Below, one piece after another: positions 42,331-48,487 of a stretch of 64,000 nt of DNA. Below the pieces are notes generated by a model. That model was not told where the DNA came from and searched no databases. It worked only from the letters and a program-made list of their open reading frames with translations. Both the position numbers and the translations under genes were made by a program. This DNA comes from Chitinophagales bacterium (GTDB lineage Bacteria; Bacteroidota; Bacteroidia; Chitinophagales; CAIOSU01). Each line of letters begins with the position of its first letter. Position 1 is the stretch's first letter. The stretch is taken from NCBI GenBank assembly GCA_026003335.1, contig BPHB01000001.1:248001-312000 (forward strand), in the 5' to 3' direction.

Positions 42331-43611
42331 TCAGTGGTGAAACTGCTCGGCTTCCGTTGAGCCTTCCATAGCGGTGGTAGATGACTGTCCCTGCTGAATG
42401 GTGTTTTGAACAGCATCAAAATATTCAGTGCCCACGAATGACTGGTGCTTGACGGCTTTGAATCCTTCCTTAGCCAGCTGAAACTCGCGTTGCTGCAGTT
42501 CGGAATAGCCGGCCATACCGCGTTCTCTGTATGCTTTGGATAGTTCAAACATGGATGTATTCAGGGCGTGGAAACCAGCCAGCGTGATAAACTGGAATTT
42601 ATATCCCATTTCAGCCAGTCGTTCTCTGAAGGTTTCCATTTCAGACACTGTAAGTTTAGCGGCCCAGTTAAAGGAAGGCGAACAGTTGTAGGCAAGCATT
42701 TTATCCGGAAACTTTTCATGCACGGCATCGGCAAATTCTTTGGCATATCCGATGTCGGGATTGGAGGTTTCCATCCAGATCAGGTCTGCATACGGGGCAT
42801 AGGAAAGCGCCCTGTCAATACCCTGTTCAATGCCATTTTTTACATAATAAAATCCTTCTGAAGTTCTTTTGCCTGTGATGAACTTGCGGTCACGTTCATC
42901 AATGTCGGAAGTAAGCAGATTGGCTGCATCTGCATCAGTGCGAGCAATGAGAATGGTAGGTACTCCGCATACGTCTGCCGCAAGACGTGCAGCCACCAGT
43001 TTGTTGATGGCTTCCTGGGTGGGCACGAGTACCTTGCCACCCAGGTGGCCGCATTTTTTTGCAGAGGAAAGCTGGTCTTCATAATGTACACCGGCTGCTC
43101 CGGCTTCTATCATCGCTTTCATCAGCTCAAATGCATTGAGGTTGCCGCCAAAGCCGGCTTCCGCATCGGCCACAATGGGCACCATCCAGTCAATGTCACC
43201 ATCTTCATTCAGTGTTTGAATCTGATCTCTTCTCAGGAGAGCATTATTAATTCTTTTTACAACATAAGGAACAGAGTTGGCTGGATACAAGCTCTGGTCC
43301 GGATACATTTCACCGGCAAGGTTGGCATCGGCAGCAACCTGCCATCCGGATAGATAAATAGCCGGCAGACCTGCAGCCACTTCCTGTATAGCCTGGTTAC
43401 CTGTCAGGGCTCCTAACCCTGCAACCCAGGGACGTGTATTGAGCATGTGCCACAGCTTTTGTGCACCGTTGCGGGCCAGAGTGTATTCAATGCGTACCGA
43501 GCCGCTTAGCTTAACCACTTCTTCAGCCGTATAAGGGCGGGTAATGCCTTTCCACCTTGGGTTGGTTTGCCAGTCTTTAATCAGGGATTCAATCTTCTCC
43601 TGTTTGGTCAT
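42331..43611 (-). CDS. aceA: Isocitrate lyase
   Basis: A 426-residue enzyme that cleaves isocitrate to glyoxylate and succinate, the first glyoxylate-shunt step. The catalytic motif [13 protein letters not shown] near residue 188, [35 protein letters not shown] and YNCSPSFNW are all present. It lies 53 bases after aceB in the same direction; the two form one transcription unit. The Gln/Thr/Glu-rich tail ([18 protein letters not shown]) is typical of the family. Confidence 0.97.
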
Positions 43612-43664: not shown

Positions 43665-45269
43665 TCAGTCAATTTTTTCGTAAGCCGGCAGGGTGAGAAA
43701 TTCAATAAACTCCTCGGAGGTAATTAACCGGTCAAAGATCTCCACAGCTTCGTTGAAACGTCCGTTCTTATACGCCTTATCTCCAACATACTTTTTTATT
43801 TTTTCCAATTCCTGTGGCAGCAGTTCTTTATACAATTGATAGGTAATTGTTCGTCCGTCATCCAGTTTGGCTTTATGATGTATCCATTGCCATACCTGGG
43901 CCCGGGAAATTTCTGCCGTGGCTGCATCTTCCATCAGATTGTAGAGGGCAGCACATCCTATTCCGCGGAGCCATGATTCAATATAGAGGATAGCTACATT
44001 GATGTTTTTTCTGAGTCCGGCTTCGGTAATTGTACCTTCGGGCACAGCAATGAGCTCTGCAGCAGTGATGTGCACATCTTCCAGCTTTTTGTGCAGCTGA
44101 TTGGGGGTAGGCATGTATTTATTAAACTGCTCCAAAGCAATCGGCACCAGACCCGGATGAGCTACCCAGGTGCCGTCATGGCCGTCCCGTGCTTCCCGTT
44201 CTTTGTCTTTTCTTACTTTTTCCAAAGCAATTTCATTTGCCTGCGGGTCGCTTTTAATCGGTATCTGGGCGGCCATACCTCCCATGGCGTGCACATTTCT
44301 GCGGTGACATGTTTTAATAACCAGCAGCGAATAAGCCCGCATAAAAGGAACAGTCATAGTTACCTGGTCACGGTCAGGAAGAATAAAGCCGGGATGTTTT
44401 CTGAAGCGTTTTATATAAGAGAAGATATAATCCCACCGCCCACAGTTGAGGCCTGCAGAGTGTTCTCGCAATTCATACAGAATTTCATCCAGTTCAAAGG
44501 TTGCCAGAATGGTCTCTATCAGCACAGTAGCCTTGATAGTACCCTGAGGGATGCCTAATTCATTCTGCGCGTAAACGAACACATCATTCCAAAGCCGTGC
44601 TTCCAGATGACTTTCCATTTTGGGGAGATAAAAATACGGGCCTGTACCTTTTGCAATAAGGTTTTTGGCGTTGTGAAAAAAATAGAGACCAAAATCAAAC
44701 AGGGAGCCTGATACGGGTTCCCCATCTACCAGCACGTGTTTTTCAACGAGATGCCACCCGCGTGGGCGCACAAGCAGAGTAGCAATTTTATCATTGAGCT
44801 TATAAAATTTGCCGGAAGCCGGATCTTCATAGGTGATGGTTCGGTTTACCGCATCGCGCAGGTTAATTTGCCCCTGTATATTGTTATACCAGGTAGGTGA
44901 ATTGCTGTCTTCAAAGTCGGCCATAAAGACTTTGGCTCCGGAATTGAGGGCATTGATAATCATTTTACGCTCAACGGGGCCTGTAATTTCCACTCTGCGA
45001 TCCAGAAGATCCATAGGCAAAGGGGCTACCGTCCATTCGCTTTCACGTATGCTGCGGGTTTCGGGAAGAAAATCGGGGAATTTGCCGGCATCTAATTCTT
45101 TCTGGCGCACCTGCCTTTTATCCAGAAGCTCTTTTCTGCGTGCATTAAATTTACGATGCAGTCCAGCTACAAATTCCAAGGCTTGAGGAGTTAGGATTTC
45201 AGCAAACTCAGGGGTTACTTCGGCTTTTATTTCAACTCCTTTAACCGTAGATACTGTGTTTGAGTCCAT
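43665..45269 (-). CDS. aceB: Malate synthase A
   Basis: Condenses glyoxylate with acetyl-CoA to malate. The ATG at 45269 ([18 protein letters not shown]) gives about 534 residues, the usual MSA length; an upstream in-frame start would add 24 residues that overlap the leader. Motifs: [15 protein letters not shown] near residue 115, [47 protein letters not shown]. First gene of the aceBA unit. Together with aceA and fbp this supports growth on C2 compounds or fatty acids. Confidence 0.97.
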
Positions 45270-45310
45270 CCGATTGCAGTTATTATTAATTGTAATGTTA
45301 AAATGTCCGG

Positions 45311-45341
45311 CAAAATTACTAAGGATATACGGTAATAGCAA
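45311..45341 (-). promoter_or_regulatory. Promoter of aceBA
   Basis: On the minus strand TTG (45341-45339), 20 bases, TAATTTTG (45318-45311), ending 41 bases before the aceB ATG. Both elements and spacing fit the Bacteroidota promoter. Confidence 0.6.
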
Positions 45342-45481
45342 TCAAAGAGTGCTAAAGCTTTCTGTTTTTTACAGCCTGCACGCGCAATGTGCCCCTTTAA
45401 TTTAGGAGCAAGCCATTTTCCTAATAAAACAATGTAGAGTGTCAATATCAGCGCTGGAGGGAGCGTATAGGCAGATAAAGC

Positions 45482-45513
45482 CGGGGCTTTACGCGCTCGC
45501 GCGTAAAGCCCCG
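45482..45513 (-). terminator. Strong 14-bp hairpin after the cobalamin-controlled gene
   Basis: CGGGGCTTTACGCG (45482-45495), loop CTCG, CGCGTAAAGCCCCG (45500-45513): a perfect 14-bp stem, 22 bases after the propeller gene's stop. No T tract follows, so it may be a 3' stabiliser or a Rho-aided terminator rather than a classic one. Confidence 0.6.
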
Positions 45514-45535
45514 ATACCTATACTGTTAAAATGTA

Positions 45536-46840
45536 TTATTCCTTGATAAACGTACGAAACGCCCTTTCACCGCTACGTGCCTTCACTACAATCTGGTAGT
45601 ATCCGGAAGGCAGATGTTGTACGTTTAACTCCTGCCGGTTGCCACTTTCATGCATGAGTAGCTTGCCTGTCAGGTCATACACCTCAATCTTTTCCACCTC
45701 CGCAGGAATATTCAGGTTCAGGATTTCCCGGGCCGGATTGGGGAAAACTGTAAAATGCTGTTCCGCAAGTGCGTCTTTTCCTATGGCTGTGGTCTTACGA
45801 ATGTCAAAAGCAATATTGCCGGCTGCTACTCCCACTGCAAATGAATCCACCAAGGCATAGCTGGCGTCATAAACGTAGGCAGTTCCGGTAGATACGTAAT
45901 CGGTGCTGGTTGCATAAATGTAATTGTTTACCGTGTCCACCTCCAAGCCATAAAAGCTTTTCTGAAAATCAAAAGAATCAGAAATCTGCTGTGTTGCAGG
46001 GTTGAAGGCAAAAAGCTTCTGGCTGCTGTAATGCTGATACCATACACGGCTAAGGAAAAAAGTAGAGGTACCACAGCCACTGGAGACATTAGCCAGATTT
46101 GTAGTAATAACAGGGTTATTTCCGGTAGGGTCAATCATGGATACAGAGCTCCCGGTGAAGTCTTTATTATTCAGCGTGTAGAAAGTGTTGCCTTCCAGCA
46201 TCAGATTATCAGGGTTCAGACCGTCAGGGCCCAGATCATACTCCAGCACGTAGGTTTTGGTATTTAAATCTACAACACCCACCAGGCCTTTGAGGTTGCT
46301 CCAGTCAAAACCGTTATTAATAATAAAGTAAGCCTTATCATTCTGAATAATGATATCCTGAGCGGCATATTGCGGTCCGTCAGCTGGTGTAAGCTCGTAA
46401 TCCAGACTTAAATCCGACTGATTGTACACCTGAAAGTAGGAGGGTAATCCGCCTATTTCACCGCGGGTAACAATTACTTTATCATTCCATGCCGCAATGC
46501 CCCGAATGCCGGGAACAGAGCGGGCGCCTAATCTTTGCAAGCTGTAGCGGTCATATTTGACCAACAGGGTGTCAGCAGCTACAAAAATGAATTGACCCGC
46601 AACGATCACCTGCGTTGCGAAGCGAGCTCCGGAGATAGTGTCAAAAACAGCGTATGTTTTGGTTGCCGGATCGTACCATGCGGCTGTTACCGGCACTACC
46701 TGCTGGCTGGAAGAATAGTCATAATAGCCTTCATTTACAAAAATGACCCGATGAACATAATCTCCGGCTATCAAGCTGAAAGAAATACTTTGCAACAAGC
46801 ACAAAGCAACGACAACGGATTTAAGAAAACTGGTTCCCAT
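45536..46840 (-). CDS. Cobalamin-riboswitch-controlled T9SS-sorted beta-propeller protein (BtuG-like)
   Basis: 434 residues. The signal peptide (FLKSVVVALCLLQSISFSLIAG) has no lipobox. About residues 28-350 form a YncE/DUF5074-like beta-propeller: VTAAWYDPATKTYAVFDT, KYDRYSLQRLG, GLVGVVDLNTKTYVLEYDL, LFAFNPATQQISDSFDF, GLEVDTVNNYIYATSTDY. A type A T9SS domain closes the chain: FTVFPNPAREILNLNI, VYDLTGKLLMH, PSGYYQIVV. The only regulatory RNA upstream is a cobalamin riboswitch, so expression should fall when B12 is plentiful. In Bacteroides the surface lipoprotein BtuG, also a propeller, captures B12; by analogy this is likely a B12 binder exported by T9SS. The B12 role is inference; the fold, the sorting signal and the riboswitch are visible. 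No btuB-type receptor is adjacent. Confidence 0.82.
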   Translation of the reverse strand: MGTSFLKSVVVALCLLQSISFSLIAGDYVHRVIFVNEGYYDYSSSQQVVPVTAAWYDPATKTYAVFDTISGARFATQVIVAGQFIFVAADTLLVKYDRYSLQRLGARSVPGIRGIAAWNDKVIVTRGEIGGLPSYFQVYNQSDLSLDYELTPADGPQYAAQDIIIQNDKAYFIINNGFDWSNLKGLVGVVDLNTKTYVLEYDLGPDGLNPDNLMLEGNTFYTLNNKDFTGSSVSMIDPTGNNPVITTNLANVSSGCGTSTFFLSRVWYQHYSSQKLFAFNPATQQISDSFDFQKSFYGLEVDTVNNYIYATSTDYVSTGTAYVYDASYALVDSFAVGVAAGNIAFDIRKTTAIGKDALAEQHFTVFPNPAREILNLNIPAEVEKIEVYDLTGKLLMHESGNRQELNVQHLPSGYYQIVVKARSGERAFRTFIKE

Positions 46841-46952
46841 GGTTTTTGTTTTTTAAGGTTAAAGAATAAATAAATCAAAAACCGGGAAAATGCTGGAGTT
46901 ACAGTGAACTGTAAACATTCCTCGCCTTTCTTCCCGAAAGCTAAGAATGAAT

Positions 46953-47123
46953 GACTCAGGCAGGTCTTCTGGCTTACCTCTTCATCCGGCTGCCTTCCCA
47001 TCTGCCCGGGCAGACAGTGGCTTCATTGCCGAAAAACAACGAGGATCACAGCAGCGGGTACTGCTCCCGATTTACACGGGATTCCCTTTTGGTCATTCAC
47101 AATAGTGAATGCACACCTGAATC
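46953..47123 (-). ncRNA. Cobalamin (B12) riboswitch
   Basis: On the minus strand the order is GATTCAGG (P1 5' arm), AAAAGGGAATCCCGTG, AATCGGGAGCAGTACCCGC, TGCTGTGATCCTC, GAAGCCACTGT, GATGGGAAGGC, AAGCCAGAAGACCTGCC, then CCTGAGTC (P1 3' arm). These are the conserved blocks of the B12 aptamer, including the B12 box. Its 3' edge lies 112 bases before the propeller gene. A TTACAG/CTGTAA hairpin (46899-46914) in between may belong to the expression platform. Confidence 0.93.
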
Positions 47124-47140
47124 ATCAAAGAGCTTCGGGG

Positions 47141-47169
47141 CAAAAGTAATAAGGAATTTTCAAATCCAA
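47141..47169 (-). promoter_or_regulatory. Promoter of the cobalamin riboswitch leader
   Basis: On the minus strand TTG (47169-47167), 18 bases, TACTTTTG (47148-47141), ending 17 bases before the riboswitch P1 stem. It directly follows the stop of the transporter gene, so the riboswitch transcript is its own unit with a leader of roughly 290 bases. Confidence 0.6.
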
Positions 47170-47175
47170 TTAGCA

Positions 47176-47991
47176 TTAGCTGGTACGAAGCGCATAATCT
47201 TTTAGTTCATTAGCCAGCTCTTCGCCAAGAAAGGTATCAATGATGTAATGCAGCAGATAAATTACCGGAGTCATGATTATTGCCATCATGAATTTATAAA
47301 TGTAGTTTACAACCCCGATAGCCAGCACCAGAGAAAAGCTCCAACCAGCGCCCACATAGAAAGCAATAAACAACACTACGAAACTGTCAATAAATTGTGA
47401 AACCAGAGTAGATCCTGTTGCGCGCAACCAAATCTGTCTTTCACCGGTAAGCAGTTTAATGCGGTGAAAAACCATTACATCTATCAGCTGGCCTATAAGA
47501 AAAGCTACCAGCGAACCTACAATAATCCATAACCCCTGGCCAAAAACCAACCGGAAGGCATAATCGTAGTCTCCGACTTTCTCCCTTATTGCCTGCTGCA
47601 CATCAGCCGGAAGGTCAGCGCGAATATGCGACTGGGGCCAGAATGAGGCGGGCTCCAGGTTGATGCCCATGTAAAACATCAAAAAGGCGTAGGATATCAA
47701 GGCTGCCGCCAGAAATGAGAGCAACCGAACCCCCCTTTTACCAAAATATTCATTGATGATGTCTGTGAGTACAAAGACAAAAGGCCACAACAACACTCCT
47801 GTGGTAAGATTGAATGACAGTCCTTCCACACCAAAAAGTTTAAGGTTAAGCGGCTCCATCCCCAGGGTTTTTTCCAGAGAAAAAATTTTTACCCCGATGA
47901 ACTCCGCTATGAGTGCATTGGCAATAAAAAAGCCGCCCAGAATGACAAACAGGCGGCTGGCCTTGTTGTGAACCACATGCATGTTTTCCAT
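47176..47991 (-). CDS. yhhQ: Queuosine-precursor transporter (VUT/YhhQ family)
   Basis: A 271-residue inner-membrane protein with about six hydrophobic segments. Characteristic are GVLLWPFVFVLTDIINEYFGKRG near residue 66, GQLIDVMVFHRIKLLTGERQIWLRATGSTLVSQFIDSFVV, and the C-terminal NYIYKFMMAIIMTPVIYLLH. YhhQ-type proteins import preQ0/preQ1 for tRNA queuosine synthesis. A possible alternative start is the fourth codon (MHVVHNK). Divergent from rnhA, 34 bases apart. Confidence 0.9.
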   Translation of the reverse strand: MENMHVVHNKASRLFVILGGFFIANALIAEFIGVKIFSLEKTLGMEPLNLKLFGVEGLSFNLTTGVLLWPFVFVLTDIINEYFGKRGVRLLSFLAAALISYAFLMFYMGINLEPASFWPQSHIRADLPADVQQAIREKVGDYDYAFRLVFGQGLWIIVGSLVAFLIGQLIDVMVFHRIKLLTGERQIWLRATGSTLVSQFIDSFVVLFIAFYVGAGWSFSLVLAIGVVNYIYKFMMAIIMTPVIYLLHYIIDTFLGEELANELKDYALRTS

Positions 47992-48025: not shown

Positions 48026-48487
48026 ATGCACGTGGAAATTTACACAGACGGAGCTGCTCAGGGTAATCCCGGCCCGGGTGGTTATGGGGTTATTCTGAAA
48101 TATGGCGACAAGGTTAAAAAGCTAGCAAAAGGATTCAGACTTACCACCAACAACCGGATGGAACTTATGGCAGTCATTGCAGGCCTTGAGGCTCTTAAAA
48201 AAAATGGTCTTGATGTAGAGGTGATATCGGACTCCCGCTATGTGGTAGATGCGGTGGAAAGAGGATGGCTGTCCGATTGGGTGAAAAAAAACTTCAAAAA
48301 CAAAAAAAACCGTGACCTCTGGGAACGCTTTCTTCAGGCGTCAAGCAAACACCGGGTAAAGTTTAAATGGATTAAAGGTCACAATGACCACCCCTACAAC
48401 GAAATGTGCGACCGCATGGCTGTTGAGGCAGCCTCCTCTCCTCCCCTCGCAGTGGATACGGGTTATGAAAGCGGATTGTATAACTGA
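48026..48487 (+). CDS. rnhA: Ribonuclease HI
   Basis: A 153-residue RNase HI that cuts RNA in RNA-DNA hybrids. The four carboxylates are visible: Asp in IYTDGAAQGNPGPGGYG, Glu in TTNNRMELMAVIAGLEAL, Asp in VISDSRYVVDAV, and Asp in NEMCDRMAVEAA, with the catalytic His in WIKGHNDHPYNE. A basic handle (KKNFKNKKNRDLW) is present. The end converges on fbp with a 7-base gap. Confidence 0.97.
   Translation: MHVEIYTDGAAQGNPGPGGYGVILKYGDKVKKLAKGFRLTTNNRMELMAVIAGLEALKKNGLDVEVISDSRYVVDAVERGWLSDWVKKNFKNKKNRDLWERFLQASSKHRVKFKWIKGHNDHPYNEMCDRMAVEAASSPPLAVDTGYESGLYN

Follow-up and report, generated by a model that had tools for sequence, protein, structure and literature searches.

The window, a stretch of 64,000 nucleotides from a Chitinophagales bacterium, carries on its minus strand a single gene preceded by a cobalamin riboswitch. 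The gene encodes a propeller with a tail for the type IX secretion system (T9SS). The features of this unit are:

47141..47169, minus strand: predicted Bacteroidota-type promoter, by sequence match to TTG-N17-23-TAnnTTTG
46942..47135, minus strand: cobalamin riboswitch aptamer with P1 arms 47116-47123 and 46953-46960, by RF00174
46884..46935, minus strand: candidate expression-platform hairpin, GGGAAGA...UUUUCCC then GGUUUUUG, between the aptamer and the start codon
45536..46840, minus strand: gene for a T9SS-sorted BtuG-like propeller of 434 aa, by domain matches and BtuG homology
45481..45514, minus strand: terminator-like hairpin closing the single-gene unit, with a 15-bp stem and a T-poor tail

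We searched the minus strand for the riboswitch with the Infernal model. RF00174 matched at 47135-46942 (-) with 106.4 bits (cmscan, E 1.3e-25), above the gathering score of 31.5 and over the full model (1-189), confirming the complete cobalamin riboswitch that the first-pass annotation had proposed. The 3.9 Mb genome contains no other RF00174 match. A chance match was ruled out by the 106 bits and by the presence of the same element in 22 of 30 relatives. The P1 arms had also been placed correctly: GATTCAGG (47123-47116) pairs with CCTGAGTC (46960-46953), with one G-U. Promoters of Bacteroidota follow the pattern TTG-N17-23-TAnnTTTG. Directly before the riboswitch, a TTG (47169-47167) is followed after 18 nt by TACTTTTG (47148-47141), which fits this pattern and agrees with the proposal that the unit has a predicted promoter of its own. 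The leader (46841-46960) folds with -26.4 kcal/mol (z -2.6) into a hairpin and then a U-run. Together, hairpin and U-run plausibly form the expression platform of the riboswitch, a mechanism that we infer from the fold. In several relatives, too, the leader folds into a hairpin behind a TTTCGG-like motif.

The 434-aa protein consists of a signal peptide (residues ~1-26), a propeller (~28-350), and a T9SS type A tail (365-433). Por_Secre_tail is its only Pfam family (residues 365-425, 45.6 bits, cut-off 27), and the TIGR04183 type A sorting domain matches at the C-terminus with 40.9 bits (cut-off 23). The protein is thus a predicted type A T9SS cargo by both models; ~60 further matches at T9SS-tail positions lie elsewhere in the genome. 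The N-terminus, MGTSFLKSVVVALCLLQSISFSLIAG, reads by eye as a Sec-type signal peptide, and the relatives are consistent with this. Its only Cys belongs to VALC and has a Leu at position -1; hence there is no lipobox. The protein therefore has a T9SS tail instead of the lipobox, Cys and lipoprotein export signal of BtuG, and the earlier description of a signal peptide without lipobox and a type A T9SS domain in place of a lipid anchor proved right throughout. The propeller had been called YncE/DUF5074-like. None of the propeller models in Pfam and NCBIfam, DUF5074 and YncE included, matches the 434-aa protein, but its resemblance to BtuG-type proteins by profile comparison (see below) is strong. 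Like that of BtuG2, the propeller is acidic (pI 4.5). We found no second full propeller of the same kind in the window genome.

A strong hairpin (45481-45514, -28.4 kcal/mol, z -5.4) lies between the propeller gene and the malate synthase gene. The propeller gene is thus a monocistronic unit, and riboswitch control of malate synthase was rejected because this hairpin stands in between. From their sequences, we take the genes past the hairpin to be malate synthase (43665-45341) and isocitrate lyase (42331-43611). On the other side lie a Vut_1 gene (47176-47991, minus strand) and then an RNase HI gene (48026-48487, named from sequence). Vut_1, of the queuosine precursor transporter type, immediately precedes the riboswitch unit both in the window and in five loci of family f3 (L055, L056, L058, L061, and L131, the last without a detected riboswitch). 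A different Vut_1 member lies upstream of a riboswitch gene unit in an f5 locus (L074, 12292-13038, minus strand).

What might such a protein do? Excerpts from PMC6143338 describe BtuG as a Bacteroides surface lipoprotein with femtomolar affinity for B12, and those from PMC10404256 describe it as a lid on BtuB. The identity of the window protein to BtuG2 (BT1954; PDB 8BAI, 8BMX) is only 17%. Nevertheless, a profile of T9SS propellers aligned with a profile of lipoprotein BtuGs at 98.9% probability (hhalign, E 1.2e-17, residues 29-346), showing homology over the whole propeller. The lipoprotein-BtuG profile, built from operons of the relatives, matches the solved BtuG structures with E ~1e-96, and the T9SS-propeller profile alone matches BtuG structures in the last blade (E 2e-6). 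The best PDB profile match, the designed propeller SAKe6AE (E 1.7e-7), was set aside as repeat similarity. Given the window protein alone, AlphaFold2 reached a pLDDT of 38 for the whole protein and 46 for residues 28-350. When this pLDDT-46 single-sequence model was compared with 350,542 PDB chains by Foldseek, the first eight matches were all BtuG (E 2e-6 to 2e-5), a ranking that we count as support only, weak by itself, because the model is weak. The structure comparison suggested by the first-pass annotation thus pointed to BtuG through a poor model, and the relation to BtuG that it had claimed is borne out by the profile comparison and by BtuG matches in the PDB from both profile and Foldseek searches.

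We compared the binding pocket using the BtuG2 residues named in excerpts from PMC10404256. BtuG2 Asn54, with which the Asn54-Thr64 clamp loop starts, corresponds to N36 of the window protein, Tyr316 to Y297 and Tyr335 to Y315 (Y or F in the relatives). In contrast, Trp272 aligns with a Cys, and Trp194, in a poorly aligned stretch, falls on an Asn and lacks an aromatic counterpart. As aligned here, the B12-binding pocket appears only partly conserved relative to BtuG2.

The first-pass annotation regarded the capture protein as a possible BtuG with another anchor. We built a maximum-likelihood tree of 46 propellers (unrooted, with some long branches). A branch with 100/100 support separates the T9SS propellers from the lipoprotein BtuGs, Bacteroides BtuG2 among the latter; one row on the T9SS side, L147, is labelled as a lipoprotein by its length because its contig ends early. 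The window protein falls within a T9SS subclade of 17 rows (99/96) and not inside the BtuG clade. Moreover, T9SS propeller and lipoprotein BtuG coexist in one locus in five families (f1, f9, f13, f14, f20). Because both kinds share a locus, the T9SS propeller is a paralogue, in a family sister to lipoprotein BtuG, and not a re-anchored BtuG. An ordinary lipoprotein-type BtuG with merely a changed anchor would share the propeller family and the riboswitch, as is the case here. This explanation is nonetheless contradicted by the separate 100/100 clade, with BtuG2 on the other side, unless long branches mislead, and by the presence of both kinds in one operon; we consider it highly improbable.

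We then surveyed the order with profile A1, an alignment of eight T9SS-tailed propellers. Propeller relatives (E<=1e-20) occur in 30 of 299 genomes. The riboswitch lies directly upstream of the propeller in 22 of these 30, spread over 10 families (f1, f3, f9, f10, f13, f15, f17, f19, f20, f21). All 7 genomes of the window genome's own family have exactly one cobalamin riboswitch, and in 7/7 it precedes the T9SS-tailed propeller. Within the available sequence, the other 8 of the 30 relatives have no riboswitch beside the propeller: two f13 genomes, with BtuB downstream; two at contig ends (an f7 gene starting near one and an f3 gene that is cut); and one f3 and three f19-g61 genomes. The f7 genome (G012, L150 1-1318) has its propeller gene in two separate frames close to the contig edge. 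A riboswitch upstream of the T9SS propeller is a conserved arrangement, not a chance one.

Neighbouring genes tie the relatives to B12. Four f15 genomes (G047, G059, G069, G035) have the order riboswitch, T9SS propeller, BtuF, BtuC, BtuD; in G047, BtuF is identified by PF01497 and BtuC by PF01032, with BtuC as the best NCBIfam match. In sister genera of f1, the window's own family, and in f9, f13, f14 and f20, the propeller has both a BtuB-type TonB receptor and a DUF5074 lipoprotein BtuG in its locus, and in many cases an FGE-like and a small T9SS protein as well. The FGE-sulfatase-like protein (~495 aa) stands beside the T9SS propeller in f1, f10, f13, f14 and f20, often with a small T9SS protein bearing a GGxGDG-like motif (L009 5732-7213, minus strand; L136, L137, L142-L145, L069). 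A lone propeller, as in the window, is found in f3 (five genomes read around the riboswitch) and f17. In another f3 genus (G041, G029), a TonB receptor, not a propeller, lies downstream of the riboswitch. The B12 role of the window propeller is well supported, because the riboswitch precedes the gene in 22 of 30 relatives, the protein is homologous to BtuG, and relatives form operons with btuFCD or btuB.

Other proteins behind these riboswitches also carry T9SS tails. DUF4465 (BtuJ-family) proteins with such a tail follow a riboswitch in f9 (L067 10736-11986, minus strand) and f22 (L038 389-1381, minus strand); propellers are thus not the only B12 proteins under riboswitch control to bear a T9SS tail. 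The BtuJ/DUF4465 B12-binding proteins, of which excerpts from PMC13398666 give an account, resemble the propeller as accessory B12 proteins in riboswitch loci, but their jelly-roll domain is unrelated to it. Behind the riboswitch of f6 lies a gene for a protein of 659 aa that has internal repeats and a weak T9SS tail; we found no further Pfam match for it (L064 7620-9599, minus strand; L037 1723-3189).

Taken together, these results suggest that the window encodes a riboswitch-controlled T9SS surface propeller, of a family sister to BtuG, that captures corrinoids and passes them to an outer-membrane receptor, a reading to which we give a probability of roughly 0.72. When B12 in the cell is low, the riboswitch would permit expression of the propeller gene, and B12 would down-regulate it. 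Sec would export the propeller, which the type IX secretion system would then carry across the outer membrane, where it would stay on the surface or be partly released. There, the acidic propeller would bind corrinoids much as BtuG does and hand them to some outer-membrane receptor. Counted against this reading are the 17% identity to BtuG2, the pocket Trp residues that are not kept, the lack of a usable structure model, and the 8 of 30 relatives with no riboswitch beside the gene in the available sequence.

We wondered which partners the window genome offers. The bacterium needs B12, as computed from its B12-dependent proteins: Pfam identifies MetH (L094) and an IcmF-type protein (L099), and a methylmalonyl-CoA mutase (L093) was identified from sequence. 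CbiC, for corrin synthesis, is absent from this genome, and was found in 0/15 genomes searched. The genome is estimated to be 100% complete. A FecCD/BtuC permease was not found in it, while the search control was positive in 13 of 14 genomes. Likewise, FecCD was missing from lone-propeller genomes of f3 (five) and f17 (one), and is present in the tested f15, f9 and g3 genomes. The first-pass annotation had noted that no BtuB adjoins the propeller. Indeed, the neighbours are Vut_1 and malate synthase, and moreover the operon-type BtuB profile gave <=27 bits across the window genome. In the remaining genomes searched from the subclade (f3, f17, f15, f19-g61) it reached <=42 bits, against >300 bits in four genomes with the other T9SS subtype (G003, G057, G086, G284), so we rejected the idea that an operon-type BtuB lies at some other place in the window genome. 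The TonB-B12 model had no match over its cut-off in this genome. Other TonB receptors are present, so the receptor could be of another type. Two adjacent frames of 366 and 460 aa (G000:C1:478793-480857) each match a separate part of the TonB-B12 model and may be a TonB receptor that is split or broken. Without BtuC and an operon-type BtuB, the window genome has no known protein to take B12 from the propeller, which counts against the capture reading.

The propeller could be made under B12 starvation without binding B12, as a surface scaffold or lid with the receptor, or for another ligand. The pocket is only partly conserved, and a true BtuG in the same locus in five families could do the binding. 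However, there is no operon-type BtuB for such a scaffold in the window genome or in the tested f3, f17 and f15 genomes, the window genome is without a second full propeller of this kind, and in f15 the propeller replaces BtuB/BtuG before btuFCD; a non-binding role therefore seems unlikely. Type A T9SS cargo can be released. The propeller might thus leave the cell as a secreted B12 carrier ('cobalophore') or serve as an extracellular B12 store, as would suit a lone propeller without BtuC or operon-type BtuB in the window genome, f3 and f17. Yet a carrier requires a receptor and none is linked, and the f15 linkage with btuFCD points to ordinary uptake. We regard release as distinctly less probable than a non-binding role.

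Capture at the surface, our preferred reading, differs from the known systems in several ways. With BtuG, the window protein shares the propeller family, the cobalamin riboswitch, the acidic propeller, and the Asn54/Tyr316/Tyr335 positions. It differs from BtuG in having a T9SS tail and no lipobox or lipoprotein export signal, in its own sister clade, in the absence of BtuB both next to it and, as the operon type, genome-wide, and in not keeping Trp194 and Trp272. E. coli-type BtuBCDF is likewise a B12 uptake system, and BtuFCD lies downstream of the propeller in f15, but the window genome has neither a FecCD permease nor a TonB-B12 match over the cut-off. In Flavobacterium psychrophilum, excerpts from PMC9723704 place a cobalamin riboswitch before another outer-membrane component of a Bacteroidota, the TonB transporter THC0290_1776, which is a receptor, unlike the T9SS-sorted propeller of the window.

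Some Bacteroidota may even take up B12 through extracellular capture by a T9SS propeller as the only riboswitch-controlled component, without the known BtuB type or BtuC and with another receptor and inner-membrane step. We offer this tentatively, as the less likely outcome. It fits the window genome, which has B12-dependent enzymes and lacks CbiC, FecCD and operon-type BtuB; it also fits the missing FecCD in five f3 lone-propeller relatives and one of f17, and the missing operon-type BtuB in every lone-propeller genome tested from f3, f17 and f19-g61.

Excerpts from PMC6143338, PMC8941943 and PMC13398666 describe BtuG, BtuH and BtuJ, the known proteins that capture B12 at the surface of Bacteroidota, as lipoproteins from gut species. 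In the titles, abstracts and passages searched, mostly open-access and outside bioRxiv, we found no description of a T9SS-sorted BtuG form. A sister family with T9SS sorting and the same riboswitch would extend B12 capture to many lineages of the order and to another export route. Genomes that need B12 and lack the known BtuB and BtuC types directly raise the question of how the vitamin enters, and the lone propeller gene would be a simple experimental handle on it.
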